Source: Polytrichum commune (taxonomy: Eukaryota; Streptophyta; Polytrichopsida; Polytrichales; Polytrichaceae). Taken from it: a DNA stretch of 64,000 nt. The stretch covers positions 5,830,501 to 5,894,500 of the forward strand of contig OX485808.1 in the NCBI GenBank assembly GCA_950295325.1. The letters are read 5' to 3'. The notes below the pieces were generated by a model. The model was not told the origin of the DNA. It made no database searches and saw only the letters and a list, made by a program, of their open reading frames with translations. The position numbers and the translations under genes are program-made. This document shows positions 9,055-61,810 of this stretch, one piece after another. Position 1 is the stretch's first letter, and every line of letters starts with the position of its first letter.

Positions 9055-10866
9055 TTACAAATCCTGTATTCTATTCCACTCGTTCCAAAATTCCTGGTCG
9101 GTAACAACATCCTCCTCGGCGGCTCGAAGACCAACGGGCTCTTGGTCCAGGAATCCAGATAAAGAGAAAGATCCCGGGGAAATCTTCAAGCTTTCATCTA
9201 CGTCCAGCAGCTCGCTGGATATCGAATTGTGAACACTAAGAGCCTCAAACTCTGCCCCCTCAGCAACCATCCACTCTACAGATGCCATGGCTGGCACTGA
9301 AATCATCTCCTTGAACTGAATCTCGTCGCTGAAATCCCCGCTGCCTGAGCTACTTAAGAAGTCTCCCTCTATCGTGAGAATCCCTCGAGGTTTGCACTTG
9401 CGTCTATCCTTCACCGACCCCATCCCCTCGGGTCCCATTAAGGGACCCGCACCGAAACACGCACCGGAGGACGGAGGTACTGAGCCACGCTTCAAAAACT
9501 CGGGAGAGTATGTAGGTTGAGGAGAAGGTGTGTGTAGATTTGATACCTCCTCTTCAGGTTGCTGGGTTTCTACCAGGGTAGAATCTTCCTTGAAACTCCC
9601 TCCCGAACCGGACCCGATTGCTCGCCTTGTCAATTCTGGAGACTTGGACGGTTGAGGTGAAGGTGTTGTGCTTCCGATGCTATATGGATCGTTGAAGTTC
9701 AAATACTCGCGATATTCTCTAGAAGGTTCAGGAGAAGGACTTGCTAGATTGACCTCCTCCTGCTGGCGCCGGTTTAGAGTGTATTCATCCTCCAAGCTTC
9801 CTGCACCTCCTGCACCCTTTCCAGAACTACTAACTGCCCGCCTTGTCAATATTGGTGACTTCGACGGTTGAGGTGAAGGTGTTGTGTCACCAATGCTATA
9901 CGAATCAATGCACGTTAAGTCTCGTGAGTGTAACCACTCATGGACCTCTTCAACCTCTTCGCATTTAACAGGGTCATGTACCTTTGGGATGATGGTAACG
10001 TTTTTCTCGACAGACATCGGGAAGAAGCGAGCAGCATCACACGAGGACATTCCTGACGGAGGTAGGGATGAACAACGCATCAAGAAATCGGGAGAACTTG
10101 TTTGTTGAGGAGGCGGCGTCGCTAGAGTTGATGACGCCTCTTCCTCCTGCTGGTTTCTTTGTTCTATACTAGAGGTCCCTTGCTTGCTTACACTTTCAAA
10201 TGCCCGCCTCGTCAAGGCCGGCGACTTGGATGGTTCAGGCGGAGGTGTTGTTGTATTGTTTCCGATTCGGTATGAATCAATGCAGGCTACTTCTCGAGAG
10301 TGCATCCACTCTTGCGCCTCGAATTCTTTACGTCTCAGTGACTTCACCTTCGTCTCGGAGGAGGACGTGGTGAACGTGATAACTTTCTTCACAGAGTCAT
10401 CGGCTTTTCTCAGCCGTGATGACTTGCTCGCTATGCCGGCCTTCCTATCTCGACCATGGGACACCGAACATTCTTCTCGAATCCGGTCAAGAAGTGGTGT
10501 CCCGCGAGGGCTTTGATGATTCTCCGACGTCGTCCGGTTTGTCGCTAACGAGCAAGGGCCGTGAATGCTATCTGCGAATCTTCGCGTGAGATCAACTCCT
10601 CCTCCAGTTGCCGTCATCGCCTTCTTTGCCCGTGGTGTCGTCTTCATCCCCTTGGTGACGTTAATTTTGTCCCTAATTTGAGAATCGACTACTGCAGGTG
10701 AGTAGATTCTCGATCTGTTATGCTCTCCAAGTGGTTTCACCACCCTCCGCAGTGACTGCGTTGGAGAACCGAGGTGGCCAGTTGACCCTGACATTTTTTT
10801 CTCTTGCATTCTCTCTTTCGCAAGAGAGAAAAGGGACCCGGACGGTATTGATTGATGAGGAGGCAT
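9055..10866 (-). CDS. Ser/Pro-rich protein with internal repeats, function unknown
   Basis: This is an uninterrupted 603-codon frame with good codon structure. The start is the ATG at 10866, the first in frame. The protein is basic at the N terminus and acidic at the C terminus. It lacks membrane segments and any catalytic motif I recognise, and most of it should be disordered. An internal module occurs three times, at residues about 186-222, 310-345 and 390-416. Its core is YSIG-(D/S)-TTPSPQPSKSP followed by LTRRA. A second motif, SPDFLMR or SPEFLKR, follows repeats 1 and 3 (residues about 258 and 454). The many SP/TP sites suggest regulation by proline-directed kinases such as CDKs or MAPKs. 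Other blocks that look constrained are TPLLDRIREECS (about 123-134), KPRGILTIEGDFLSSSGSGD (492-511) and the terminus FWNEWNRI. A regulatory or scaffold role is possible, but I cannot assign one. Confidence 0.75.
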   Translation of the reverse strand: MPPHQSIPSGSLFSLAKERMQEKKMSGSTGHLGSPTQSLRRVVKPLGEHNRSRIYSPAVVDSQIRDKINVTKGMKTTPRAKKAMTATGGGVDLTRRFADSIHGPCSLATNRTTSENHQSPRGTPLLDRIREECSVSHGRDRKAGIASKSSRLRKADDSVKKVITFTTSSSETKVKSLRRKEFEAQEWMHSREVACIDSYRIGNNTTTPPPEPSKSPALTRRAFESVSKQGTSSIEQRNQQEEEASSTLATPPPQQTSSPDFLMRCSSLPPSGMSSCDAARFFPMSVEKNVTIIPKVHDPVKCEEVEEVHEWLHSRDLTCIDSYSIGDTTPSPQPSKSPILTRRAVSSSGKGAGGAGSLEDEYTLNRRQQEEVNLASPSPEPSREYREYLNFNDPYSIGSTTPSPQPSKSPELTRRAIGSGSGGSFKEDSTLVETQQPEEEVSNLHTPSPQPTYSPEFLKRGSVPPSSGACFGAGPLMGPEGMGSVKDRRKCKPRGILTIEGDFLSSSGSGDFSDEIQFKEMISVPAMASVEWMVAEGAEFEALSVHNSISSELLDVDESLKISPGSFSLSGFLDQEPVGLRAAEEDVVTDQEFWNEWNRIQDL

Positions 10867-12480
10867 GTTGTCCCTTGCTCGCTAGCTAGCTCTTTTCCTC
10901 TCCGACCTGCAACAAAGTGCTTTCAAAACTCCTCAATCAGGTCCTGTCTTCTTTGTTATTTTGAGGGACGCAAAGCGTTGCAACTGTCAGGCCGAAAAGC
11001 TTTGACGTCAAGGAGGCCATTCTCTTGGCAACAAGCAGACGGAAAGCATTCACAGACAGAGACGGCAGGGATAGTTAGACCACAAGAAAACTTCCTCCGC
11101 GTTTTCGCCCGTGTTTGCAGAACTAATGCAACACTTTTCTTGCTGTTTGTACTACGCATAACAGTTGTTCACATAGTCGCAACAAAGCATCAACATCAAC
11201 GACTTCAGGGCACACAATGTGCACCTAATACTATTAAAAACCATCAGTTTCTGGATTGTCACAACGAGCTGAGTGCAGAGGTACATAGACGTGCAAAATA
11301 AGGAAGCTCAGATTCCATTTGTTGTTGCGGTTGTTGATGCAGCTACTAAGACAACGCTTCCTTTCGTGTTTACTTGAACTGCTAAGGCATCTCTCTCTCT
11401 CTCTCTCCGCAAACGATATGCAACTCGCATCATGTCCCTTCCAGCCAACTCAAAACTACTCGGAAGCATTTTTTGTTGCGGACGTTAAAGTAGCGACAAA
11501 GTAAAGACACCGCTATACAAATATATATTTTTTGCTTTTTTTCTAGGGGAGGAACAATGAGCTATGACAAATTCGTCTCCGAATACAAGAAGAGCACTGA
11601 CATTTTCTTCCCATGAATCATCAACACTTTTTACTGACAGTTCGTTCTATCTACTGCCATTCAGTCCAGCCACTTCAAGATAACCCTAAACAAACAGAGT
11701 GCCGTGGTAATTACCTCCTCCTCCTCCTCGTGCGATGAAGTGAAGTCAAAGAAGCCTACGCTTCTGGCTCTCCGCAAAGCTCCCGGCCACCACCACCGCA
11801 CTACTGCAATCCCTTCCAACTACCACGACTCTACTACGGCTTAACCTCTGATGAGCAGACACAGAAGCACAAAACAATCTGGTTCCTCCTGCATCTCCAG
11901 AGCCTCCTCCAGCCATCGCCTTCTATGCACCGATAATGTCGCCGCCATGGACACACTCGAGAAAGCCATCACCCATCAACCACCCTCTGCGATGACCGAT
12001 ATCCTCCACCATAAAGATCGGCATAGTCCAAATCAAAAACGTACAACCCCACGACGACACACCAGGAGACCCTTGGAACCACGACGCAAGCTTTCCTACT
12101 ACACCAAATTCAAAAAGACCACAATTCCAAAACCGATCCAACTGGAAACGAAGACGAGGAGGCGAGAGTCGAGGGCTACAGCGCTACCGAAGAATGAGCA
12201 TATTCAAATGTGGCGCTCCAAGGCTGTCTCTTCAAACGGTTCTTTCCTATTTCCTGTGAGCCTTCTTTACGGGATTTCTTTCCACGCCTCGACTTTCTCC
12301 CCGCAGGTCGGCCACTTTAATACAGGCTATCGCCTGCATTCTCTTTCCAGGCTCATCTACCCCATCCTTATCTTTTACCTTCCGTCTTTCCTGTTTCCTT
12401 TGAGGAGTTACAGAGTTCGAGACACCATGCCATCAGTCATGCCATGCACTGCCCGATAATAAAAACATTTAAATAAAAAC
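10867..12480. other. Promoter and 5' UTR region of the 603-codon gene
   Basis: This stretch is richer in GC than the surrounding repeats and holds a (CT)n tract at about 11390-11406, that is (GA)n on the transcribed minus strand, which is common in plant 5' UTRs. Plus-strand open frames at 10852-11301 and 11851-12459 show no domain, no repeat in composition and no conserved-looking block, and run antisense to the likely 5' UTR. They are judged non-coding. Confidence 0.45.
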
Positions 12481-15429: not shown

Positions 15430-17208
15430 AGTGATGGGGGAGATTTTTGGGCATCATCGGCTGAGGGGCGGTTTACACCAGTGTCCGAAAAGTTTTTGAA
15501 GTTATTGAGGTTAATTGCCTACCTCTTTAAAAGGGCATAGGCTATTTCCCTCATGGCATAGGTTGCATCCTACAGTATCAAATTTTTGTAAGTTGGAAAC
15601 CTTTTGAGTTTTTAAGTTACCCGCCAATTGCCTTCAAAACTAATTTTTAGTAGGTTAAAATCCTTCATATCTTTTAATGTTGTAGGCTTTAAATTCAAAA
15701 TATAATGAAAGGTTGCTAAAATTCAAATGAGTTTAAGGGTGAAAGTCCTCACCATCTTTTGATTCAACCTCTACTCTTCTGCAAGATATTTCTCAGGATT
15801 AGTAAACAAGAATCGAAACTTTCTTGAATCCTTCCACAAAGATATAGCTTCCTCCAAAATAAACTCAAAATTTTGGTTGGTCCTTCAATTGCCGCCCGCA
15901 TCACACTATCCAAGTGTGTTGTTGCCATTCGATTCGAGCGAGCGAGCGAGAGAGAAGCTGATGAGAGAGGAGTTGTGATGAATGGTATTTGTAAAGATTG
16001 GCGGGAAGGGAGTTAGGGCTATTATTGATATCCGTCTATGTGCCACCCAAGAGCCCCGAGTATTAGCCTAAAGATATGTACTTAGGTCAACTAATTTCCC
16101 AATTTGAAGAAGGATGAATGGCTAAAATCCTCTCTTTTAAAAACTTTGTAGGCAAAATTTCCTACATGTTTTTTATCACATAGGTTGATATCCTATGTTT
16201 TTAAATTGTCCATAGGCTCGTTGTCCTACACTTTCAAAATTTTATAGGCTAAGTCACAAATTTTGTAGGTTGCATTTACACTAGCCTTAGGCTCTTGGCG
16301 GACTATGGTTTACACTATGGACCAAGAGCCATGACCATGAAATTCTAAAATCTGTGATTGGAGAGTAAAGTGCTCTTGGTCCCATTTGGCTTTACACTAC
16401 CTTGAAAAAAGGAGAATGACCACTAACTTTGAGGTCCCCAAAAACTACTAAAATCTGCCATTTGGATAATGTGCCATGGTCCAACGGGTTTTCCGTTGAG
16501 GCGAGGCAAAATGCTCGACTCAACGGAAATCAAGGGAGCCGTAAGGCTGAAAATCAGCCATTGGCCGAATTTTGTTTTTAATATTTTTTTTCCCGATTTT
16601 TTTTTGACGTTACTGTATTTATATTAAAAAAATCAGCCCAAAGTTGTCCCGGTCCAAATCCACTTTACACTACAAGAGTGACCAAGCCACTCAAAAATCC
16701 ATTTTTCATTTTTCATGGTCATGGCTCTTGGCCAAGAGCTATGACCATGAAAATGATTTAATTTTCTTGGTCATGGCTCTTGGTCCATAGTGTAAACCGC
16801 CCCTGAGATCCTAGTGTTTGCAAGTCCAACCGGTTACATGTTGACATTTTTTTCGGTTTTCCTTTACTAAATTGGGGTATATTCTATAAATTCCTCTAAA
16901 ATGATCGGTAGTTTTTCTGCAGTTTTGAACTTCAACCGGTTATTTCTCAAACTCAACCGGTTCATCTGTAACTAAGTGCCGGTTCTCCCCGGTCATTGAT
17001 ACTAAGTCAATCGGTTGAGATCCTAGTGTTTGCAAGTCCAACCGGTTACATGTTGACATCTTTCAATTTTCCTTTACTATATTGGGATATATTTAATAAA
17101 TTTCTCTAAAATGATCGGTAATTTTCCTGCAGTTTTGAACTTCAACCGGTTATTTCTCAAACTCAACCGGTTCATCTGTACCCAACTGCCGGTTCTCCAC
17201 AACCATAG
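15430..17208 (+). mobile_element. Mutator-like MITE, copy 3, internally duplicated and interrupted
   Basis: The outer ends (AGTGATGGGGGAG at 15430 and CTCCACAACCATAG ending 17208) are flanked by the 9-bp duplication TTTCAATCC / TTTCAATCT (15421-15429 and 17209-17217). Inside are two head-to-tail MITE bodies (16804-17003 and about 17007-17208), so the element underwent a partial tandem duplication. Its left copy is split 35 bp from the end by a 1.34-kb insertion (15465-16803). Removing the insertion restores the family sequence TCGG(C/T)TGAGATCC. Confidence 0.8.
15465..16803. mobile_element. Harbinger-like TIR element, family GGGGCGG, copy 1 (nested)
   Basis: The 14-bp terminal inverted repeat GGGGCGGTTTACAC / GTGTAAACCGCCCC is perfect, with a 3-bp duplication TGA on each side (15462-15464 and 16804-16806). 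The right 0.5 kb (about 16310-16803) matches the reverse complement of the element at 45053-45615, whereas the left 0.8 kb is unrelated to it, so this copy looks composite. No transposase reading frame is present. TIRs with 3-bp TNA-like duplications suggest the PIF/Harbinger group, with some doubt because TGA is not the usual TWA. Confidence 0.75.
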
Positions 17209-25062: not shown

Positions 25063-25700
25063 ATAGAGGCCTATTAGCCAAATAGCATTACCACATTCTC
25101 AGTGGTCTTTATATTGGGAAGAGGCTTGCTGAACAACCTGTCACTGGCCAATTAGAAACCCTTCAGAAAAGGGACTAGTATAAGATCAAAACAATGTCAT
25201 CCAGTCAAAGCCAATGTCTTATTGCGACTTGATGTGTTTGCCTTACTTTAGGACATCAAAATTGCTCTTGGATTTGATATATCAAATGGAATGTGATATG
25301 ATATACAGTGGATTCAATCACAACTCTAACTAGCTTATGTCTTCAGCGCACGAAGAATGAATGTGAATATTTGCAAACTGTCACACAGTTTGAATACAAT
25401 GTGCGTTGGAAGTTGCAGCTGAAGGGTGATTGTTCAACTTCAAAGCTTAGTTGGAAGACAAAAATGGAAAATTTTCATTGAGTTAGTTCAACCCATAAGA
25501 TGTATGATCAGACTTTTCCATGGGAAGACGCGCAACAGATTTGCCAAAAATATCACCATGCTTCCTTTGTGACGTAGAGGGAACAATGCAACACGACACG
25601 TCTTTAAAACCTACAGTTTCTTCCTTCAGGAGTTCCTCTTACTCCACCTGCCACCACTACTCGCGCTTAGATACACACAAGCCTACGTAAGAAGAAGCCC
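25063..25700. other. Intergenic DNA
   Basis: No gene or repeat could be supported in this stretch. Confidence 0.4.
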
Positions 25701-25707
25701 ACCACCT

Positions 25708-25985
25708 CGGTCTCACAAAGAAGGACTGAGTAGACTCGCTATTTTTGAGCTCGAATGTCCACCGAAGTGCAAGCACAAAGTCTTGAAGCGTCGTCCTCTT
25801 CCACTGCAACGTCAATTTCGTGTTACTTTAAAACACGCCTTGCAAAGAAGGACTAAGCAAACTCGCAATTTTTGAGCTCGAATGTCCACCGAAGTGCAAG
25901 CAGAAAGTCTTGAAGCGGCGTCCACTGCCTCTGCATGCTACCAACTTCCACTGCAACTTCAATTTCGTGTTACTTCTAAACACTG
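25708..25985. repeat. Two-copy tandem duplication, 127-bp offset
   Basis: The block around AAAGAAGGACT and TTTTTGAGCTCGAATGTCC is present twice, 127 bp apart (GAGCTC at 25747 and 25874). The second copy has about 27 extra bp before the shared segment TTCGTGTTACTT. It is GC-richer than the surrounding DNA and lies just beyond the distal end of the LRR array. Confidence 0.7.
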
Positions 25986-26222
25986 CTTGCGAAACTCCTT
26001 TCTAATCTGCCTCGTCAACTTCAAGACACCCTGACGACTCCTTCTTCTACCACCGCCTCCTCCTCTTATTGCTAGACCAAACGCATCCGCTTCCAATTTT
26101 TCCATCCGCCTTCTAGTGCATCTTGGAGCACCAACGACGAACTTCCAGTGGCAGTCTCGATCCGCAACCTCCCACAAACTCTTCTCAAACTCGTACACTG
26201 TGCACGCCGCAAGGATCAGCTT

Positions 26223-29115
26223 CTACGGTAATGTTGTCAGGCTCGAGCAATGGGGCAAACGGAGGGTTGTCAAAGAAGTCAAGTTAGCGAATCCCTCTGG
26301 TGTTGTTGTCAGGCTCGAACACCATGATAAATCTAGGGTTGTCAAAGAAGTCATGTTCACCAATCCCTCGGGTAATGTTATCAGGCTCGAACATGATGCT
26401 AAATCAAGGGTTGTCAAAGAAATCAAGTTCCCCAATGCCTCCGGTAATGTTGTTAGGCTCGAGCAATAGGACAAACGGAGAGTTGTCAAAGACATCAAGT
26501 TCCCCAATCCCTCTGGTAATGCTATCAAGCTCGAACAATGGGACAAATCCAAGGTTGTCAAAGAAGTCAACTTCCCCAATGCATTCGGTAATGTTCTTAG
26601 GCTCAAGCAATGGGACAAACGAAGGGCTATCAAAGAGGTCAAGTTCCCCAATCCCTTCAATATTGTTGTCAGGCTCGAACAATGGGACAAATCAAGGATT
26701 GTCAAAGAGGCCAAGTTCCCCAATCCCTTCGGTAATGTTGTTAGACTACAACAATTGGACAAATTGAGGGTTGCCAAAGAAGTCAAATTGCCCAATCCAT
26801 CCGGTAATATTGTCAGGCGCCAACAGTTGGACAAATCGAGGATTCTCAAAGAAGTCAAATTGCCGCATTCCTCCGATAACTTTGTCAAGCACCAACAATT
26901 TGACAAATTGAGGGTTCTCAAAGTGGTTAGGTTTGCCAATCCCCCCGGTGATGGTGTAAGGCTTAAACAATGGGACAAATTGAGGTTTGCCAAAGAAATC
27001 AAGTTCCCAAATCCCTCCGATATTGTTGTCAGGCTTGAACACTGGGATAAATCAAGGTTCGTCAAAGAAGTCAAGTTCCGCAATCCCTTTGGTAATGTTG
27101 TCAGGCTCCAACACTGGGACATATGGAGGGATCTTAAAGATATCAACTTCCCCAATGCCTCCGGCACTGCAGTCATGCTCGAACAATGGACCAAATCTAG
27201 GGTTGTCAAATAAGTCAAGCTCCCCAATGCCTCCGGTAATGTAGTGAGGCTTGAGCAATGGGACAAACGGAGGGTTGTCAAAGAAGTCAAGTTCCCCAAT
27301 CCTTCTGGTAAAATTATCAAGCTTGAACAATGGGACAAATCCAGGGTTGTCAAAGAAATCAACTTCCCCAATGCATTAGGTGATGTTGTGAGGCTCGAGT
27401 AATGGGACAAAGGGAGGGTTGTCAAAGAGGTCAAGCTCCCCAATCCCTCTAGTAATATTGTCACGCTCAAACTATTGGACAAATCAAGAGTTGTCAAACA
27501 AGTCAACTTCCCCAATGCCTCTGGTAATATTGTTAGGCTCCAACACTTGGACAAACGGAGGGTTGTCAAAGAAGTCAAGTTCCCCAATCCCTCCGGTAAA
27601 GTTATCAAGCTTGAACAATGGGACAAATCCAAGGTTGTCAAAGAAGTCAACTTCCCCAATGCATTAGGTAATGTTGTCAGGCTCGAGCAATGAGACAAAC
27701 GGAGGGTTGTCAAAGAGGTCAAGCTTCCCAATCCCTCTAATAATGTTGTCACGTTCACACAATGCGACAAATCCAGGGTTGTCAAAGAAGTCAACTTCCC
27801 CAATCCCTCTGGTAAAGTTATCAAGCTGGAACAATGGGACAAATCCAGGTTTGTCAAAGAAATCAAGTTCCCCAATCCCTCTGGTAAAGTTATCAAGCTT
27901 GCAATATGGGACAAATCCAAGGTTGTCAAAGAAATCAACCTCCCCAATGCATGAGGTAATGATGTCAGGCTCGAGCAATGGGACAAACGGAGGGTTGTCA
28001 AAGAGGTCAAGCTCCCCAATCCCTCTAGTATTATTGTCACGCTCAAACAATGGGACAAATCAAGGGTTGTCAAAGAAGTTAAGTTCACCAATCCCTTGGG
28101 TAATGTTATCAAGCTCGAACAATGAGACAAATCAAGGATTGTCAAAGAAATCAAGTTCCCCAATCCCTCTGGTAATGTTGTTAGGCTCGAGCAATGTGAC
28201 AAACGGAGGGTTGCCATAGAAGTCAAGTTACTAAAATCCTCCGGTAATGTTATTAGGCTTGAACAATGGGACAAATCCAGGGTTGTCCAAGAAGTCAAGT
28301 TCTTTAAACCCTCCGGTATTGTTGTCATGCTTGAACAATGGGACAAACATAGGGTTGTCAAAGAGGTCAAGTTCTCCAATCCCTTTGGTAAAGATGTTAG
28401 TTTCGTACAGTTGGACAACTTGAGGGTTGACAAAGAAGTCAAATTGGCCAATCTCTCCGGTAACATTGTCAGGCGCCAACAGTTGGACAAAACGAGGTCT
28501 CTCAAAGAAATCAAATTGGCCAATCCCACCGGTAACTTCATCAGGAACCAACAATTGGACAAATTGAGGATTCTCAAAGTGGTTAGGTTTGCCAATCCCC
28601 CCGGCAGAGGTGTCAAGCTTATACAATATGATAAATCCAGGGTTTTCAAAGAAGTCAAGTTCCCCAATCCCTCCGGTAATGTTGTCATGCTCCAACACCA
28701 TGATAAATCCAGGGTTGTCAAAGAAGTCAAGTTCCCCAATCCCTCCCATAATGTTGTCATCCTCGAACAGCTTGATAAATCCAGGGTTGTCAAAGAAGTC
28801 AAGTTCCCCAATCCCTCCGGTAATGTTGTCATCCTCGAACACCTTGATAAATCTAGGGTTGTTAAAGAAGTCAAGTTCCCCAATCCCTCCGGTAATGTTG
28901 CATCCTCGAACACATTGATAAATTTAGGCGTGTCAAAGAAGTCAAGTTCCCCAATGTCTCCGGTAATGTTGTCATGCTCGAACACCCAGATAAATACACG
29001 TTTTTCAAAGAAATCAAGTTTCCCAATCCCTCCGGTAATGTTGTCATGCTCGAACAACTTGATAAATCCAGGGTTGTCAAAGAAGTCAAGTTCCCCAATC
29101 CCTCCGGTAATGTTG
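26223..29115 (-). pseudogene. Distal LRR block, out of frame with the PNL gene
   Basis: The LRR pattern continues past the stop at 29116 but in other frames. Between about 29110 and 28905 it reads in a second frame (TTLPEGLGNLTSLTTLDLSS and two more units). From about 28905 to the TAG at 26223 it reads in a third, uninterrupted for nearly 900 codons, about 37 LRRs. The two shifts coincide with two 71-bp units, each missing one base. That so long a frame stayed open suggests the breaks are recent, or are sequence errors, although the 72-bp unit also tolerates other frames. After the TAG the same frame stays open for 87 more codons to 25959 and reads non-LRR sequence (YEFEKSLWEVADRDCHWKF), possibly the former C terminus. 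Confidence 0.7.
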
Positions 29116-32100
29116 TCATGGCGAACAACTTGATAAATCCAGGGTTGTCAAAGAAGTCAAGTTCCCCAATCCCTCCGGTAATGTTGCCATGCTCGAACAC
29201 CCTGATAAATATAAGTTTTTCAAAGAAGTCAAGTTTCCCAATCCCTCCGGTAATGTTGTCATGCTCGAACAGCTTGATAAATTTAGGCATGTCAAAGAAG
29301 TCAAGTTCCCCAATCCCTCTGGTAATGTTGTCATCCTCTTACAATATGATAAATCCAGGGTTGTCAAAGAAGTCAAGTTCCCCAATCCCTCCGGTAATGT
29401 TGTCATGCTCGAACACCCTGATAAATACAAGTTTTTCAAAGAAGTCAAGTTCTCCAATCCCTCCGGTAATGTTGTCATGCTGGAACACTCTCTTAAATTC
29501 AGGATTGTCAAAGAAGTCAAGTTCCCCAATCCCTTCGGTAATGTTGTCATGCTCGAACACCCTGATAAATACACGTTTTTCAAAGAAGTCAAGTTCCCCA
29601 ATCCCTCCGGTAATGTTGTCATCCTCGAACACCCTGATAAATTCAGGGTTGTCAAAGAAGTCAAGTTCCCCAATCCCTCCGGTAATGTTGTCATGCTCGA
29701 ACAGCTTGATAAATCCAGGGTTGTCAAAGAAGTCAAGTTTCCCAATCCCTCTGGTAATGCTGTCATGCTCGAACAGCTTGATAAATCTTGGGTTGTCAAA
29801 GAAGTCAAGTTCCCCAATCCCTCCGGTAATGTTGTCATGCTCGAACACCTTGATAAATACAAGTTTTTCAAAGAAGTCAAGTTCCCCAATCCCTCCGGTA
29901 ATGTTGTCATGCTCGAACACCTTGATAAATTTAGGCATGTCAAAGAAGTCAAGTTCCCCAATCCCTCCGGTAATGTTGTCATCCTCTTACAATATGATAA
30001 ATCCAGGGTTGTCAAAGAAGTCAAGTTCCCCAATCCCTCCGGTAATGTTGTCATGCTCGAACACCCTGATAAATACAAGTTTTTCAAAGAAGTCAAGTTC
30101 TCCAATCCCTCCGGTAATGTTGTCATGCTGGAACACTCTCTTAAATTCAGGATTGTCAAAGAAATCAAGTTCCCCAATCCCTCCGGTAATGTTGTCATGC
30201 TCAAACACCGTGATAAATTAAGGGTTGTCAAAGAAGTCAAGTTTCCCAATCCCTCCGGTAATGTTGTCATGCTCGAACACCCTGATAAAGCCAAGGTTAT
30301 CAAAGAACTCAAGTTTCCCAATCCCTCCGGTAATGTTGTCATGCTCGAACAGCTTGATAAATCCAGGGTTGTCAAAGAAGTCAAATTTCCCAATCCCTCC
30401 GGTAATGTTGTCATGCTCGAACACCTTGATAAATTTAGGCATGTCAAAGAAGTCAAGTTCCCCAATCCCTCCGGTAATGTTGTCATCCTCTTACAATATG
30501 ATAAATCCAGGGTTGTCAAAGAAGTCAAGTTCCCCAATCCCTCCGGTAATGTTGTCATCCTCTTACAATATGATAAATCCAGGGTTGTCAAAGAAGTCAA
30601 GTTCCCCAATCCCTCCGGTAATGTTGTCATCCTCTTACAATATGATAAATCCAGGGTTGTCAAAGAAGTCAAGTTCCCCAATCCCTCCGGTAATGTTGTC
30701 ATGCTCGAACACCCTAATAAATACAAGTTTTTCAAAGTAGTCAAGTTCTCCAATCCCTCCGGTACTGTTGTCATGCTGGAACAGTCTCTTAAATCCAGGA
30801 TTGTCAAAGAAATCAAGTTCCTTAATCCCTCCGGTAATGTTGTCATGCTCAAACACCGTGATAAATTAAGGGTTGTCAAAGAAGTCAAGTTTCCCAATCC
30901 CTCCGGTAATGTTGTCATGCTCGAACACCCTGATAAAGCCAAGGTTATCAAAGAAGTCAAGTTCCCCAATCCCTCCGGTAATATTGTCATGCTCGAACAG
31001 CTTGATAAAGCCAAGGTTCTCAAAGAACTCAAGTTCCCCAATCCCTCCGGTAATGTTGTCATGCTGGAACACTCTCTTAAATCCAGGATTGTCAAAGAAA
31101 TCAAGTTCCCCAATCCCTCCGGTAATGTTGTCATGTTCAAACAGCTTGATAAATCCAGGGTTGGCAAAGAAGTCAAGTTCCCCAATCCCTCCGGTAATGT
31201 TGTCATGCTCCAACACCTTGATAAATCCAGGGTTGTCAAAGAAGTCAAGTTCCCCAATCCCTCTGGTAATGTTGTCATGCTCGAACAGCTTGATAAATCC
31301 AGGGTCGTCAAAGAAGTTAAGTTCCCCAATCCCTCCGGTAATGTTCTCATGCTCGAACACTCTCTTAAATTCAGGGTTGTCAAAGAAGTCAAGTTCCCCA
31401 ATCCCTCCGGTAATGTTCTCATGCTCGAACACTCTCTTAAATTCAGGGTTGTCAAAGAAGTCAAGTTTTCCAATCGCTCCGGTAATGTTGTCATGCTCGA
31501 ACAACCTGATAAGTCCAGGGTTGTCAAAGAAGTGAAGTTCCCCAATCCCTCCGGTAATGTTGTCATGCTCGAACAACCTGATAAGTCCAGGGTTGTCAAA
31601 GAAGTGAAGTTCCCCAATCCCTCCGGTAATGTTGTCATCCTCGAACAACTTGATAAATTCAAGGTTGTCAAAGCAGTGAAGTTCCCCAATCCCTCCGGTA
31701 ATGTTGTCATGCTCTTACAGCCTGATAAATATAAGTTTTTCAAAGAAGTCAAGTTCCCCAATACCTCCGGTAATGTTGTCATGCTCGAACAGCTTGATAA
31801 ATCCAGGGTTGTCAAAGAAGTCAAGTTCCCCAATCCCTCCGGTAATGTTGTCATGCTCGAACACCCTGATAAATATAAGTTTTTCAAAGAAGTCAAGTTC
31901 CCCAATACCTCCGGTAATGTTGTCATGCTCCAACAACTTGATAAATCCAGGGTTGTCAAAGAAGTCAAGTTTCCCAATCCCTCCGGTAATGTTGTTATGC
32001 TCCAACACCTTGATAAATCCAGGGTTGTCAAAGAAGTCAAGTTTCCCAATCCCTCCGGTAATGTTGTCATGCTCGAACAGCTTGATAAATCCATGGTTGT

Positions 32101-32150
32101 CAACAAAGTCAAGTTCTCCAATCCCTCGGGTAATGTTGTGAGTGACCTAC
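26223..32150 (-). repeat. Tandem array of about 80 units of 72 bp encoding 24-residue LRRs
   Basis: The repeat unit is 72 bp and, on the minus strand, encodes the 24-residue LRR consensus LTTLDLSSCSSMTTLPEGLG followed by NLTS. The proximal half (about 29.0-32.1 kb) is nearly homogeneous. The distal half (26.2-28.8 kb) is a diverged subfamily with SHCSSLTTLPEALGKLTSL. Higher-order structure is visible: a marker unit recurs at 29285, 29933 and 30437 (648 and 504 bp, that is 9 and 7 units), one unit is tripled at about 30475-30690, and the distal half shows a four-unit (288-bp) period. Two units are 71 bp (29103-29173 and 28888-28958). Such structure points to repeated unequal crossing-over or gene conversion. 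Confidence 0.95.
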
Positions 32151-35100
32151 AAATCAATAAATGTAGGGAGTTGAATTGGTGGTGTACAATGCCCATGCGA
32201 ATGCTAAAAAGGCTTGGAAAATTTTCTCCATCTATTAAAATGCCTTCAATTTTTTGGTATATCTGTTTTGAAAATATGAAAAATGTCAAAACCACATCTC
32301 TCGAGATGAATTGCTCATAGTAATCAAATGTTGTCCTCAACAAACATAGAAAAACATAAACCATTGTAATGCATATTACATGATTATCTAGCATATGTTT
32401 GAACAACTTAGTTATGAACCCTTTGACCAACAACTTTGCAACTCAATTTGGCTACAAACAACCTAATTCAAATTGTGAACATATAGAATACCTTGTTTGC
32501 TTGTTCATTTGCTAAAGGAATCATGATTTTATCCCAAATTCGAGTACCCTTGTACACCTCCTCCTTCTCAACCATCAATCGTCCCATGTCACGTAGTTGG
32601 TCATGCATCTCTATGCTGTCGAAGAATGGATCTATCTTGACCAAGGACCGCTCCACCAACACATCAAGCACATCACTTGGAGATGCACATGTACGCAAAA
32701 CTCTTTTTTTCCGATGTCCCATGGGAAAGAAGCATGCTATGTCTAGGAACAACTTTTTCTCTTCGTCTTTTAATGCATCAAAACTAACCCTCAAGGTACT
32801 CCAAAGCCCTTCATCACCATCCAAACATCTGCCTCTTTTCATCCTTTGGAAAGCCCTTTCCCAACTTCGAATCCTCTCCTTTCCTTGCAAGAATGCACCC
32901 ATGACTTTCAAGCTTAAAGGCAAGCCCTTGCAAGCTTCCACAATTTTGTCACGTATATCAAATAACTCTGGTGACAATTGTCCTTCATCCGAATAAGCAT
33001 AAGAATTAAACAGTTGTATTGATGCACTTCCAGCTAACTCCCTGACATCTATCCTACCATTCTCCTCCACAAAAACCTTTAGTAGGCCCCAATCACGGGT
33101 TGTTATGATAATATTGGTGCCTTTGTTGACAAACTGAGCATTTGTTGGAATTATATCACGCACTTGATCTTGATCTAGTGGATCATCCAATATAAGAATG
33201 ACTTTCTTGTTGGCCAACAACTCCCTCACCTTTTCTTGAGCATCCACCATATTAGGCTTGTTTTCTTTGTCCAAGCTTTCAAGTTTTTCTATAATCTCCC
33301 ATAGGACTTCATGTGAAGTTTTGTTTTTCAATTGTTCAATAAAGCATGATGCATTGTATGTGGATTTCACATCATCAAATATAGCCTTAGCCAAGGTGGT
33401 CTTCCCTATTCCACCCATACCGGTGAGACCCAACACATTCACTTGTTTAAGCTGATTTTTCACTTGAGGACGTTTGGTTTCAAGACCCACCAATTTTTCA
33501 TTTTGTGTTGATAATTCATCCGCCTAAACAAAGAACACACACGTTAGGATCCTCTATGAAGAGTTCAATAATCAAAATCCAATTTCAAGCAAATTAAATT
33601 AATAACAATAAAAACATGACATCTCATAGGTAAGCAATAAGCACATTGTAGTAAACTTAAGTTCATACCTTCTTTGTAGCAAGGAAGTTTTTGACATGCT
33701 TCAAGGCTTCCGATTTCCTTTCCATATGTTGGGTCATAGACCGGTGTTTATCAAACCTTGGTATATCATTCGAATACGTTCCAATCGTGAACTCCTTCAA
33801 GGTTGTGAGTCGTTTACAAATGTTAGAAAATGTTGGCCTTTGTGAAGGATCTTCAACCCAACATTCTTCGAGCAACACGGTAAGGTCCTTACAATTGATA
33901 GGTAGGTCTGGCCTGACATTATCTTTTATGTCTTGTAAGATGTCTTTTGTGTCCCAAAATGGTTGCTTAAGAGAAAGAATCTCTGAACATGTCATTGCAA
34001 ATGACCATACATCAGCTTGGAAAGGACATGCCGCACAAGGTGGGTCTTCTTTGTTTTTGTTCCCCATCTCAGGTGCCATATACTTTCGTGTACCAATAGT
34101 GTGTCTTTGTAATTCTGGTTTGCTTTGAACCTCCATTTTGGAAGTATCATAATCCATCAATTTGACAAAACCATGGCCACAATTTCCCTCTACTCCTGCA
34201 ATTCTCATGGAGCTTAGAAGCACATTGTCTGGCTTTAGATCAAGATGGGCAACATACATGTCATGAAGATAACACATGCCCTTTGCAATTTGATACATTA
34301 TATCGATTGCAACAATATATGATAAGGGTTTCTTTTGCTTTTTCAAGAAACTACCCAAGCTCATCTCCATGAGCTCCATTACTAAATATAGTTCTTTTGC
34401 TTCATCAGGACTGTCCTCAAGGTTTTCATTAGTTCCACAACCAATGAATTTGATGATGTTCGGATGGCTCAAGCCTGCTAAGAGTTTGGCTTCTTTGAGA
34501 GAGTTTGGAGAACCTTTCATTACTTTTGTTGCACTTTGAAGTCCCATCCAACTTGATTTGTACACTTCACCTGTTGCTCCCGAACCTATTTCTTTCAAGA
34601 ACTCCGGTTTCATAAAATCCTTTGAAATCTCCGAAGCATCCAATTCTGCACCTTTCACTTGTTGCAAGTCGTGTTGCACTCTCTTCAACAAATATTTTGC
34701 TAACTTGTGATTGGGCGTTCTTTGAAGGCATTCTAAAAGCCGTTTTTTCAAGTCTTCTTCATCACCTTGAATTTCGTCATAAGTGGCCACTTTAAAATCA
34801 ATGCATGGGATGTCATGTTGTGACTCCACGCACCAAAGTGAATTTGCTATGCATATTGCATCCCAAAAACATCTCAAATCGTACACAAGTTCTCGAAAGG
34901 CCTCCCTATTGTTCATTTGGAATGCAGCTGCATGGCACCATTCTTGCTTCCCACAATCTTCCACCAATACTCGTACTCTTTGAATAATTCGACATAACTC
35001 CTCTAGCACAAGCCCGATATTGGAGGTCTCATTTGTAGATGTGATCATCCCATTGAGATGATACACAACTCGGTCGAGTTTGTTGAGAAGATTTTCACAT

Positions 35101-35285
35101 TGTCTCTTATTAAGCACTTGCTTTGTCTTAAGAACCTCATGAAGTTTGCTTACTTCTTTGCTTTGCCACTCCAAAATATCTCCAGGCTTACTTTGTTCTT
35201 GTCCTTTTCGCACATATGTCCAAAACTTTAAAGAGATAATACTTATGAAACCCCAAATCAAAATCCGCTGCAAGATCTTGGCCAT
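29116..35285 (-). CDS. Kinase-NB-ARC-LRR immune receptor (moss PNL class), three exons
   Basis: Exons on the minus strand are 33669-35285, 32492-33523 and 29116-32262, with GT-AG introns in phase 0, giving about 1931 residues. Residues 4-25 are a hydrophobic N-terminal helix, followed by a helical region to about 225. The kinase domain spans about 229-495, with glycine loop GSGATGEV (234-241), Lys254, Glu265, catalytic loop HLDLKPDN (347-354), DYD instead of DFG (378-380) and APE (404-406). NB-ARC motifs are P-loop GMGGIGKTT (574-582), kinase-2 ILDD (650-653), TTRD (680-683), GLPLSLK (739-745) and MHD (845-847). Exon 3 gives about 42 LRRs of 24 residues and ends at a frameshift-generated stop. 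NB-ARC ATPases switch on ADP/ATP exchange, the LRRs usually sense, and the N-terminal kinase presumably signals. I chose the ATG at 35285; an ATG 36 codons upstream would precede the TATA box. Family assignment is firm, but the intact length is uncertain. Confidence 0.9.
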
Positions 35286-35393: not shown

Positions 35394-38300
35394 AACTTTT
35401 AAATTTAATTTTAAATGCTATAATTCTCAACAAGCAAATTAATATGTAATTTGCTAGTAATATGCAAGAATGGACATGGTAAAAATTTCCATTCGCAATA
35501 AAGAATTATAGCAATGTGACAATCGAGCGCATCTTGCTAATTAATGTTACAACTCATGGTTTTATGCCTTAAAAGAGGCCTAATCTAGTATTTTCTTGGT
35601 CAACTACCCGAAACACCTAGAAGGTTCTTGAATTTTAAGTTCCATCCAACTACAAGGTGGAAACTAACTAAGGTTTCTACACTATATTAGACAAACCAAC
35701 AAAATAAGTAGATGACAATTTTGAATCTTGGTGCCACCAACGTGATCTCTTTGCCCCAACTATGACTCCATGTATTGAACTAATGCATGGCAAACCTTCA
35801 ATTCTTCCAAGAAACAAGTCACAAACAAACTTTGCATCAAGTGGACCATACAATGAGTAAAAACGTGTGCATCTTCATGGCCCTCTTAATTCAAGTAAGA
35901 AACTCTCACATAAAGATTTTGAACTTTGTCCAAGTGGCGATTGATGCGATTCAACAATACCATTGTTCCACCTTTTAATAATCCTTTCTTCATTCCTTTG
36001 TGGAGTAAACTTCAATCTTTATGCTTGCCATAATCTAACATTTGACAAGTTGGAGGAAGATAAAATTCATTGGATCAATGTTGTTGTTATCAATCCTTCA
36101 AAAAAATGCCAAACAAGCATACAAATATCAACCAACTACTCACTCTAAGTTGGTGGATGCTTACATAAGCTCCACCAACTAGGAACGATGTATACATAGG
36201 TAATGAACTTCCAACTCTCATAGATAAACCCTAAATATCATTTCCCCCTCTTCCCTCGAAGCACTCAATCAAATTCAAAAGTGTGTACTTCAAACCCATT
36301 GCAATTGGAACGCCAAAGAACCAAACACTCCCAAAATAACACATCAAGATTCCCAAAACTTCCATACAAGCAACCTTGGACAACAAGATATGCAAAAAAT
36401 AATTTGAACACTAACAATCCATGTGCATTCCAGTCATTGAAATACAACCAATCCAAATGACTTATCAACATCCCCTTCATAACATGTGACTGTGGAGTAA
36501 ATAAACTTCATACTCCTCAAAAACAAACGTTTTCACTCAAGAACATCTACCAATTGTGCTTCTATGTTCACTTGGATAACCACACCCACATGTGCTCATC
36601 CAATGACATCATGGTAGTCCGGTAGGTAGACCATGTGTATAGACAAACACAAATAGCCATACCATGTCAATGGTTTTTTATTGAAATAAATGAGTTTCAC
36701 ACATCAACATTGAGAGACGGTCGATGGCACTATTGAATCTATGAATAACATGTGTCTACTTCTTTGACAAATATTGGCTCATAGCATCCGCTTTTGAGAA
36801 GGTCCAAAGGCTAGTCCTACATTGTAGCTTTCATAGGATAGGAGATGATATATATATATGTATATTCATTCCATGCAAAGAGGTCATACACCTAGAGATA
36901 TAGAACTTGCCAACTTGCCTAGAGTTGATTATGCTCCCTAACTATGAACATCATAGAGAAAGGAACGAATTTATCATAACCTACATAAGGTTATTATGAA
37001 GCCACGAGAAAAATGTCACCACACAAAAATGGCAAACAAACATGTTTCCACGTGTCGGTTGGAGATGGATAGCACTTTGACAAGAACCAAAGTCTTAAAA
37101 AGAATCCTCATAAACAAACATTCACGCCCATTCTGAAAGACAACACAACCATGAAACTTGAAACCTACAAGATAAGTCTATCACTGCAAAAGCTTCACGC
37201 AAAAGCCTTTTCTTGAGCCCTTCAACCAAATTGCCTCTTCGTGTGTACACTTCATTCATCATTCATCATGTGCATCCTCCCATTTGTGTTGGCAAGACTA
37301 TATAGGAATAGGAATTAGATATCCACTTTACACTGATATGGGCTAAGTTGGAGAGGTGAAATGTTGGACTGTACAAACACATAACTTACAAATTAGGAGA
37401 TTCCTTCCTTCTCCCAAGATCCACGAGAACAACCGCTTCTAATTACCAACTAAGATGAAATCTATTGATGCGTAGCCCACCTTAATCTTCTCCAACTAGG
37501 TTGCAACATGTTTCAAACAAACTTGGTAATTATTGACGAGGAAAGGACGGGTTTTACCAACACAAACAACAATTATCGCCGAGAAAAGGTTACATATTTA
37601 AAAAGATGGTGCAAGTGGTGTTCAAGTAGGTGATGATGAACAAGTAACTATCAAAAATTTGTTTGAAATATGATAAAATAACATTAAATTGATGGTTTTT
37701 TTTTATAAAGTTTTGTGATGATGCCCTCAAAACTACAATGAACTCAAGGAATTTGAAAAAAACATCTAACTTCCAAGTAATTAAGGTCATGAAATTTATG
37801 TCGAAAACTAGATTCAACCACTTGCTTTTGAACATGACTTTTGATACTAAGTGTTGAAAATCTCAAGTTTGTATCCTACATTTGTGTATTCAACACAAAT
37901 GTAGAGGTCATCGTGAAAACAACTCCAATTTAAACAACAATTTGCTATTATTTTCAAGCCCTTGATCCGAAAAAAGAAAAGGGTATTAGTATACCAAAGC
38001 ATTTCTCGGTCCACTTTACCATGCTTGCACCTTTCTACTAAACCGGTCGTTGATGTGATCCATAATCTCTCTTGTCATTTTAATTTAGGTGATAATGAAT
38101 CAATCTTAGATCTCTAATTCATCAAGAATGTCTACTCCAAGTTGAAAAAACCGAGTTGCATACTAATGCACCAACGCCTCTAGATCACAACTGAATGGAA
38201 ATGAACTTATAAGGGGATCCTTGCATGCTCAAATACAGAAGCAAAATGTAGGAGCCAATATTTTTCACATATAATGCCCAATTTGGGTGGGGTTATTTCT

Positions 38301-39419: not shown

Positions 39420-39735
39420 ATTTTAGGTCAATCTATAATTAAATGGAAATACATTGATAAAGCAAAACTGAAATATATCAGCATGTAACCGCTTGGACTT
39501 AAAACAATGAACAGAGAGAATCGGTTGCTAGTTCTGAGTTTAATGATTGAGTATGAGAAATAACCTATTAAAGTTCAAAACTTCACATTATTTATCGATC
39601 ATTTAAAGAAATCTATAGAATGTACCTCAAATCGATAAAGGAAAACCAAAAGATTACAACATACAACCATTGGAATAGGGAAACACCGGGATTTTAACCA
39701 ATCATGCCTAAAAATCTCCCTGGATATTAACCTAG
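39420..39735 (-). mobile_element. Degenerate Mutator-like MITE sequence (two fragments)
   Basis: Read on the minus strand, 39515-39735 follows the MITE consensus through CAGGGAGATTTTTAGGCATG and TTTTGGTTTTCCTTTATCGA but with many changes and lost CCGGTT sites. 39420-39510 carries a second fragment including AAGTCCAAGCGGTTACATG. These are the oldest copies in the window. Confidence 0.6.
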
Positions 39736-40289
39736 AAACACTTGGATCTCAACTCGTTTAATGACGAAAACATATGTCGGTGTTTTCGTCATTAAAATAT
39801 CATCAATGTATGTAGTTATATGGTGTTTAGGGTGCTCTCATAATTGGAAATAGGCGGTGGTGAACTTGATGAGGCTACTTAAACTTGTGTATTTGGCCGT
39901 ACGTTGAGACCTTATGTTTTTTAAGGGTTAGGCTTAAGTGGAAGATCAGTACCATGCCGGTGGATTTATGTAAATGTGACTCTTGATGTGACGTATGTAA
40001 ATGTGACTCATCGAATGACATTTTCATACTATGAGCTAGCATGACATGACAAATTTGAAATAACCTCTTCAATTCCTTTCGGTTTCTCAAATGTTTGAAC
40101 TTTGATGTTCGAAGGAGCTCACAAAGACAATCACATAATTTTGTTCAAAGCCATCAATAAGATGCACCATTGAAGATACATAACAAACCTACTTTCTGAG
40201 TTTCTGTAGAATATTGTTGATGACAAATCCTATTATTTAGCTATCAAAGTTGTTAATCATACCACCAACACACTCCATCCTTAACTTCC

Positions 40290-45052: not shown

Positions 45053-45615
45053 GGGGCGGTTTACACTATGGACCAAGAGCCATGACCAAGAAAATTAAAT
45101 CATTTTCATGGTCAGAGCTCTTGGCCAAGAGCCGTGACCAAGAAAATTAAATCATTTTCATGGTCAGAGCTCTTGGCCAAGAGCCGTGACCATGAAAAAT
45201 CAAAAATGGATTTTTGAGTGGCTTGGTCACTCTTGTAGTGTAAAGTGGATTTGGACCAGGACAACTTTGGGCTGATTTTTTAATATTTCTATCCCAACGA
45301 TCTATAGTAACGTCAAAAAAAATCGGGAAAAAAAATATTAAAAAAAAATCGGCCAATGGCTGATTTTCAGCCTTACGGCTCCCTTGATTTCCGTTGAGTC
45401 AAGCATTTTGCCTCACCTCAACGGAAAACCCGTTGGACCATGGCACATTATCCAAATGGCAGATTTTAGTAGTTTTTGGGGACCTCAAAGTTAGTGGTCA
45501 TTCTCCTTTTTTCAAGGTAGTGTAAAGCCAAATGGGACCAAGAGCACTTTACTCTCCAATCACATATTTTAGAATTAAATGGTCATGGCTCTTGGTCCAT
45601 AGTGTAAACCGCCCC
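45053..45615. mobile_element. Harbinger-like TIR element, family GGGGCGG, copy 3
   Basis: This is a 563-bp element with perfect TIRs beginning GGGGCGGTTTACACTATGGA, flanked by TAA on both sides (45050-45052 and 45616-45618). The left end contains a tandem pair of a segment with CATGGTCAGAGCTCTTGGCC. Its reverse complement matches the right half of copy 1. No coding capacity. Confidence 0.85.
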
Positions 45616-61360: not shown

Positions 61361-61810
61361 ATGAAATGTGCCTCACTCCCTTAGACTTAGAGAAAGTTAC
61401 TTATTGATTCAAAGAATGTGACATGTGCCTCACCCTCTCAAACCCGAACAAAACTAATTACTAATATAGAGGGTATGACATGTGCCTCACCCCCTCGAAC
61501 CTGAACAAAAGTAATTACCCTTATAGAGGTTGTAACATGTACCTCACCCTTTCAAACCTGCGCAAAACCAATTACCGTTAAAGATGACGTAGCATGTGCA
61601 TCACCCCCACAAAGATAATTACATATATTGAGGGTGTGGCATGTGCCCCACCCCCTCAAACTTGAGCAAAATTAATTACGGCTACCCAAGTTGTGGCATG
61701 TGCATCATCCCCTCAAACCCTAGCAAAGCTAATTATTATTATAAAGGGTGTGGCATGTGCCTCACCCCTACATAGCCGAACAAAGCTAATCACTATTACA
61801 GAGTATGTTT
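61361..61810 (+). repeat. 57-bp minisatellite, eight units
   Basis: The core CATGTGCCTCACCCCCTCAA recurs at 61365, 61422, 61479, 61536, 61593, 61640, 61697 and 61754. The spacing is 57 bp except for one 47-bp unit. Units differ by several substitutions, so the array is not very young. 57 bp is a multiple of three, and one plus frame is open across the last units (61693-61884), but nothing else suggests coding. Confidence 0.85.

Follow-up and report, generated by a model that had tools for sequence, protein, structure and literature searches.

The window, meaning the whole 64,000-nucleotide stretch of Polytrichum commune DNA that was analysed (C6:5830501-5894500), contains a 72-bp tandem array at 26226-32139 with 82.2 copies and 83% matches (TRF). 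Genome comparisons covered the 407.8-Mb assembly in 64 contigs. Judged from its sequence, the array is the LRR exon (exon 3) of a PNL (protein kinase-NB-ARC-LRR) gene with the following predicted parts.

35700..37700, minus strand: 5' flank, 98-99% common to four other gene copies
33669..35285, minus strand: exon 1, N-terminal region and protein kinase domain, 539 aa (Pfam Pkinase 1.4e-40)
33524..33668, minus strand: intron 1, phase 0, at the kinase/NB-ARC boundary, predicted GT-AG with whole codons on both sides
32492..33523, minus strand: exon 2, NB-ARC and ROQ1-type winged helix, 344 aa (Pfam NB-ARC 1.2e-36, WHD_ROQ1 3.4e-12)
32263..32491, minus strand: intron 2, phase 0, predicted
29116..32262, minus strand: exon 3 as assembled, leader and 41 full LRRs, 1,048 aa, ending with TGA at 29118-29116 (Pfam LRR_14 1.3e-134)
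25300..26222, minus strand: 3' flank, 98-99% common to five other places on C6

The predicted protein of the window copy has 1,931 aa (539 + 344 + 1,048). Exon 1 contains what we take to be the kinase motifs, namely the K in ATKVMK, HLDLKPDN, DYD in place of DFG, and a retained APE, while the P-loop GMGGIGKTT, LDD, GLPL and MHD of exon 2 are presumably the motifs of the NB-ARC domain. Plant receptor kinases are among the sequence-closest solved LRR structures, as are the NLRs RPP1 (entry 7crb, so named after the available text of PMC8813719) and ROQ1. The order of an N-terminal kinase, NB-ARC and C-terminal LRR is that of the PNL or Pkn-NLR class, as far as the class is characterized in the sections of PMC3352924 and PMC11218826 available. 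In the PK-NBS-LRR genes of the moss Physcomitrella, an intron of phase 0 separates PK from NBS (Xue et al. 2012, PMC3352924, available sections), and the predicted phase-0 intron at 33668/33524 matches it. The WHD_ROQ1 match is compatible with the PNL grouping.

An antisense open reading frame at 29111-32320 (plus strand, 1,069 aa) was rejected as a gene, since it is open because the repeat period is a multiple of 3, and its viral and other Pfam matches are repeat artefacts. Elsewhere in the window, a 608-aa open frame without a Pfam match lies at 9055-10881 on the minus strand, and serine/proline-rich blocks recur in its translation. Other tandem repeats are a 210-bp repeat at 16804-17198 (1.9 copies), a 57-bp repeat at 61417-61803 (7 copies) and a 52-bp unit at 45073-45198 (2.4 copies) with ends that form an inverted repeat.

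Architecture of the repeat array and its reading frame

Circular-profile decomposition, counting units of at least 65 columns, divides the array into 82 full units running from 32127 to 26226 on the minus strand, and the assembled array is free of any sequence gap. Exactly 72 bp is the length of 80 of the 82 units; the exceptions are units 42 and 45 (71 bp each), which were omitted from the codon counts in the window array. The landmarks within the array are as follows.

28674..32127, minus strand: units 1-48, the proximal (dynamic) compartment, with a 9-unit higher-order repeat and a mean pairwise identity of 0.884
30472..30687, minus strand: units 21-23, one 72-bp unit present three times in identical form
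29105..29175, minus strand: unit 42, 71 bp, first frame break, which brings a TGA in frame
28890..28960, minus strand: unit 45, 71 bp, second frame break
26226..28673, minus strand: units 49-82, the distal (frozen) compartment, with a mean identity of 0.757; its units correspond 1:1 and collinearly to those of L001, L003, L004 and L024 (relatives described below)
27234..28169, minus strand: units 56-68, local four-unit period: for 11 of the 13 units the nearest distal relative lies a multiple of 4 away
26223..26225, minus strand: TAG that immediately follows unit 82 and shares the frame of the distal units, not that of exon 3 as assembled

The original prediction of about 80 near-identical units was right as to number, but near-identity holds only for units 1-48. 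Between the two halves the mean pairwise identity is 0.760, and over all units it is 0.801; the nearest relative within the array differs by a median of 2 bases in units 1-48 and by 9 in units 49-82. The view that the distal half is a separate subfamily agrees with our decomposition, in which the best split falls after unit 49; unit 49 itself already pairs with the distal block in paralogues.

The predicted recurrence of blocks at a 9-unit offset is borne out in units 1-48 (z -5.35; 0 of 2,000 shuffles as low). A 7-unit offset, proposed alongside it, fails to reach significance as a period (units 13-42, z -1.07) and probably comes from the two extra copies of the tripled unit inside one 9-unit block, as unit 24 equals unit 31. 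The tripled unit itself was correctly recognized: units 21, 22 and 23 are mutually identical, and identical to unit 30 too. The other identical proximal pairs are 8/9, 18/27, 24/31 and 29/38. The four-unit period ascribed to the distal half exists locally, in units 56-68, but is weak over the half as a whole (12 of 34 units; binomial P 0.12, permutation P 0.014), where offset 4 has a z of -3.06 and a family-wise P of 0.069. The nearest distal relatives of units 50-53 are units 73-76, at an offset of 23.

As assembled, exon 3 of the window copy stops after 41 LRRs, so the expected single protein with about 80 LRRs is not encoded. The two 1-bp deletions in units 42 and 45 leave the assembled gene with 41 LRRs and the distal block untranslated. 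A frame restored by a 1-bp and a 2-bp deletion was considered and rejected: both deletions are of 1 bp, and the stretch between unit 46 and the TAG at 26225-26223 is open in a third frame.

Window unit 45 and unit 32 of the relative L001 are both 71 bp long, with the gap at neighbouring bases. Their flanking units are equivalent (44/31 differ by 1 base, 46/33 by 2), and the two units themselves differ at 5 aligned positions. A common origin of these two breaks is likely on this comparison. Window unit 42 has no counterpart among the gapped units compared in relatives. In L004, one shortened unit is present as two identical copies (units 42 and 56), which indicates that a frame break was multiplied when its unit was duplicated. 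This speaks for the L004 break, at least, being real and for the copying of such units by exchange. Of the 20 loci, 14 have one or more gapped units, some of the gaps being 3 bp long or lying beyond a stop; this frequency fits decay as well as dynamism. The window copy may still be a 41-LRR receptor, or may be on its way to becoming a pseudogene.

A clade of relatives with a reordered core and a conserved distal block

A search with the NB-ARC exon gave 19 other matches of at least 79% identity among 116 scored matches: 13 on C6 (4.5-6.7 Mb) and 2 each on C5, C7 and C1. Grouped by this exon, at least 20 loci form a clade that includes the window gene; 14 lie on C6 between 4.5 and 6.7 Mb. The numbers of full units, for which only units without missing columns were counted in the relatives (thus L002 55, L011 24, L015 41), are as follows.

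Window, then L001-L009: 82, 73, 55 (L002, cut by gap), 90, 93, 60, 46, 40, 31, 24
L010-L019: 30, 24, 68, 86, 87, 41, 21, 29, 59, 51

Over these 20 paralogous loci, the window included, the unit number spans 21-93. L003 is intact, with exons of 543 + 343 + 2,205 aa from the first in-frame ATG and 90 units without internal stop; its whole array is one open exon, and the predicted protein has 3,091 aa and 90 LRRs. When the genome was searched with the leader of exon 3, at least 44 leader-containing matches were found (150 best of 4,749 candidates scored). The open frames around these 44 listed matches have a median of 755.5 aa; at least 13 are 984 aa or longer, and one is cut by a gap. On these counts the long array is a feature of the gene clade and not of the window locus alone. 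The expansion, initially called extreme, does exceed the numbers given for flowering plants in the available part of PMC8813719 (8-25 LRRs in Arabidopsis NLRs, 47 in one from lettuce), but within this gene clade such long arrays are nothing unusual. Two further places, C3:1451345 and C4:11944484, hold very long open frames: one of 2,355 aa with an LRR match, close to an NB-ARC 57% identical to that of the window gene, and one of 2,924 aa that encloses an NB-ARC.

The pair L001 and L003 bears on how the arrays change. The two are identical over the 3,569 bp that precede unit 6 on its upstream side, and again over 3,492 bp from L001 unit 34 and L003 unit 51 onward. The core between these tracts comprises 27 units in L001 and 44 in L003, and their order is not the same. 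Of the 27 in L001, 7 recur unchanged in L003, and 12 are 3-8 bases distant from all units of L003. Farther upstream the identity is 0.988-0.996, and the 3' flanks are 99.3% identical. The gene bodies are thus more alike than their surroundings, which fits gene conversion. For a 1,727-bp part of the L001 core no close donor was found: the best other match in the genome is 91% identical (best 33 of 242 candidates scored, common words skipped).

Other pairs with near-identical NB-ARC ends differ in unit number as well: L017/L018 (29 and 59 units; 100% over 665 bp), L011/L012 (24 and 68; 99.1%), L005/L006 (60 and 46; 98.5%) and L007/L009 (40 and 24; 97.5%). Counter-examples are L013/L014 with 86 and 87 units and L008/L010 with 31 and 30, both at 96.0%.

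The distal block behaves differently. In each of L001, L003 and L004, the collinear window unit is the nearest for 34 of 34 units, with a median of 0-0.5 differences, and the block agrees in five places, the window included; several copies have the 3' flank in common along with it. Matches to a partial unit 0 in the comparison of the window with L004 were discarded as spurious, and partial units do not enter the collinearity comparison. The claim that the locus grows and shrinks is hence supported, together with reshuffling, for the proximal half, by the 27 and 44 units of L001 and L003, and does not hold for the distal half with its 34 collinear units in three relatives. These dynamics are read from recent paralogues, not alleles, and unequal exchange and gene conversion are taken together. 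Against L001 and L003, the window gene has an identity of 0.988-1.000 in the first half of exon 2 and 0.941-0.952 in the second half; identity drops again near the start of exon 1 (0.956-0.960), and the proximal array is highly diverged.

At C6:6109327-6111160, a 99% copy of the 3' flank lies within 75 bp of a match to the far 5' flank (window about 39480-39802). The site was checked as a possible orphan array, and no array lies between the flank copies; it looks like a place where a whole gene copy of about 13 kb was lost.

We take codons 10, 11, 13, 15 and 16 of the unit to be outward-facing by the LxxLxLxx(N/C) consensus. The LRR consensus is given in the available text of PMC8813719. Because units exchange sequence, values between them are not independent, and with few synonymous sites they are indicative only: in units 1-41 the predicted exposed codons have pN 0.344 and pS 0.116 (ratio 2.97), and the remaining codons pN 0.059 and pS 0.122 (ratio 0.48). 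The corresponding ratios are 11.4 and 0.72 in the proximal half of L003 (exposed pS only 0.024), 1.32 and 0.50 in L013, 1.58 and 0.70 in L007, and 1.42 and 0.49 in the distal half of the window. A rank test on pN gave P 0.0005 for the window, 0.0013 for L003, 0.0020 for L013, 0.0024 for L007 and 0.044 for the distal block. Replacement variation thus seems to concentrate at predicted exposed residues, an indicative result. Between gene copies, pN/pS of the distal block is 0.53-0.82 on 14-24 changes, with no changes between L001 and L003, which points to only mild constraint.

Competing explanations and the proposed receptor

Assembly errors in the form of collapsed repeats, chimeric joins or haplotypes kept as duplicate contigs might have produced the numbers of units, the scrambling of the cores and the breaks in frame. 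The array of L002 stops inside unit 56 at a 200-N gap (C6 about 6395017-6395216), and an orphan array, L024, begins at a 200-N gap (locus bases 2623-2822) and continues with the next unit of the L003 order. L002 is also an inverted near-copy of L003, in which all 55 of its full units have exact counterparts, with one unit 3 bases off in position. From this arrangement L002 and L024 are probably one L003-like array that the assembler split and misplaced, the scaffold being misordered there, and given the two gaps at sister arrays the unit numbers may be assembly-dependent. Short-read assemblies of comparable fungal NLRs omit or create repeats and are unreliable for highly alike repeats, while long-read assemblies are consistent (PMC12222747, available text). 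An artefact is nevertheless unlikely to account for the window array, which is gap-free with 80 of 82 units exactly 72 bp long. The same distal block is found at five places, a similar break occurs at the equivalent L001 unit, and the break of L004 is duplicated within its array. Nor are L001 and L003 one sequence assembled twice, since they differ by 0.4-1.2% upstream of the identical tract.

Ordinary pseudogene decay, with the window copy and many sisters dead and their arrays drifting by slippage without selection, is a more serious candidate that we still consider doubtful. The two frame breaks and the stop in the window copy speak for it, as do the gapped units in 14 of 20 loci and the duplication of a frame-broken unit in L004. 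It is at odds with the kinase exon, the NB-ARC exon and 41 LRRs being all open, with the fully intact L003, and with the proximal codons, of which the non-exposed are constrained (0.48) and the exposed are not (2.97). An unannotated intron that removes the frame breaks, so that the full 82-unit array is translated, would suit the single open frame from unit 46 to the TAG at the array end, and GT and AG are present within units. As L003 needs no such intron, its whole array being one open exon, this reading is very improbable.

The explanation that we favour, and hold to be probable, is that of a PNL receptor gene in which the proximal LRR core evolves by exchange, the distal block is fixed and the window copy is a 41-LRR version as assembled. 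Unequal exchange and gene conversion, acting between units shifted in register and between members of the cluster, would alter the proximal core. In-register exchanges would preserve the reading frame because the unit is 72 bp, a multiple of 3. The LRR solenoid would be the sensor, since replacement changes concentrate at the predicted exposed beta-strand positions, and ligand binding to it would trigger NB-ARC switching and then kinase output. The array might in this way act as the generator of recognition diversity that the original prediction suggested.

Relation to known systems and significance

Within the PNL class, the highly alike arrays of up to 90-93 units found here are not described in the Results of PMC3352924, and the open-access literature searched yielded no account of moss PNL genes with arrays of this kind. 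The nearest plant precedent found is soybean Rps11, a giant NLR cluster with tandem duplication of the LRR domain, unequal recombination and proteins of 2,315-2,463 aa (PMC8571336). Rps11 resembles the window clade as an NLR cluster enlarged by LRR duplication; it differs in being from a flowering plant, in duplicating LRR domains and in that no kinase is mentioned in the available text of that paper. The window gene, in contrast to what that text gives for Rps11, has single-unit and 9-unit repeats of near-identical 72-bp units together with a frozen distal block.

A functional analogy is offered by fungal NLRs with high internal conservation such as het-d and het-e of Podospora. According to the available parts of PMC12222747 and PMC4986451, their sensor repeats are more than 80% alike, evolve in concert and vary in unit number, with diversifying codons at the binding face and divergent repeats at the C-terminal end. 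A likeness above 80% is found here in units 1-48 (0.884 at the nucleotide level) and not in the distal half (0.757). Fungal variation in repeat number may have a parallel in the 21-93 units among 20 paralogous loci, not alleles, and diversification of the ligand face may have one in the ratios of 2.97 and 0.48 (P 0.0005, with units not independent). The fungal type, as described in those parts, has WD40, ANK or TPR repeats, fungal effector domains and usually 11 alike repeats (het-d/het-e), whereas the window clade has LRRs, 41-90 repeats and a kinase, in a plant. By analogy, then, the window clade works like the fungal NLRs and is not a member of their group. A sea urchin NLR also has highly alike LRR repeats (PMC12222747, citing Hibino 2006, available text), but it is an animal NLR.

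We tentatively propose that the clade could be a plant LRR version of the fungal fast repeat sensor, with about 40-60 near-interchangeable cassettes between a conserved receptor body and a conserved distal LRR cap, the core of this stretch being rewritten by exchange and its surroundings remaining identical, as in L001 and L003. The components are known; what is new is their combination in a plant, of LRR type and of this length, as far as the available text of the sources goes. Intact 90-LRR genes would have about twice the largest LRR number quoted for a plant NLR in the accessible part of PMC8813719 (47, lettuce). If the proposal is true, each gene copy, and perhaps each individual, would present a new binding surface of 40-90 LRRs, and exchange could lengthen or shorten the translated sensor by means of frame breaks carried along in duplicated units. 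This bears on the old question of how new receptor specificities originate in plants, which have no adaptive immunity. With a core that differs between letter-identical 3.5-kb flanks, the rate and mechanism of sensor change would be measurable by sequencing spores or siblings.
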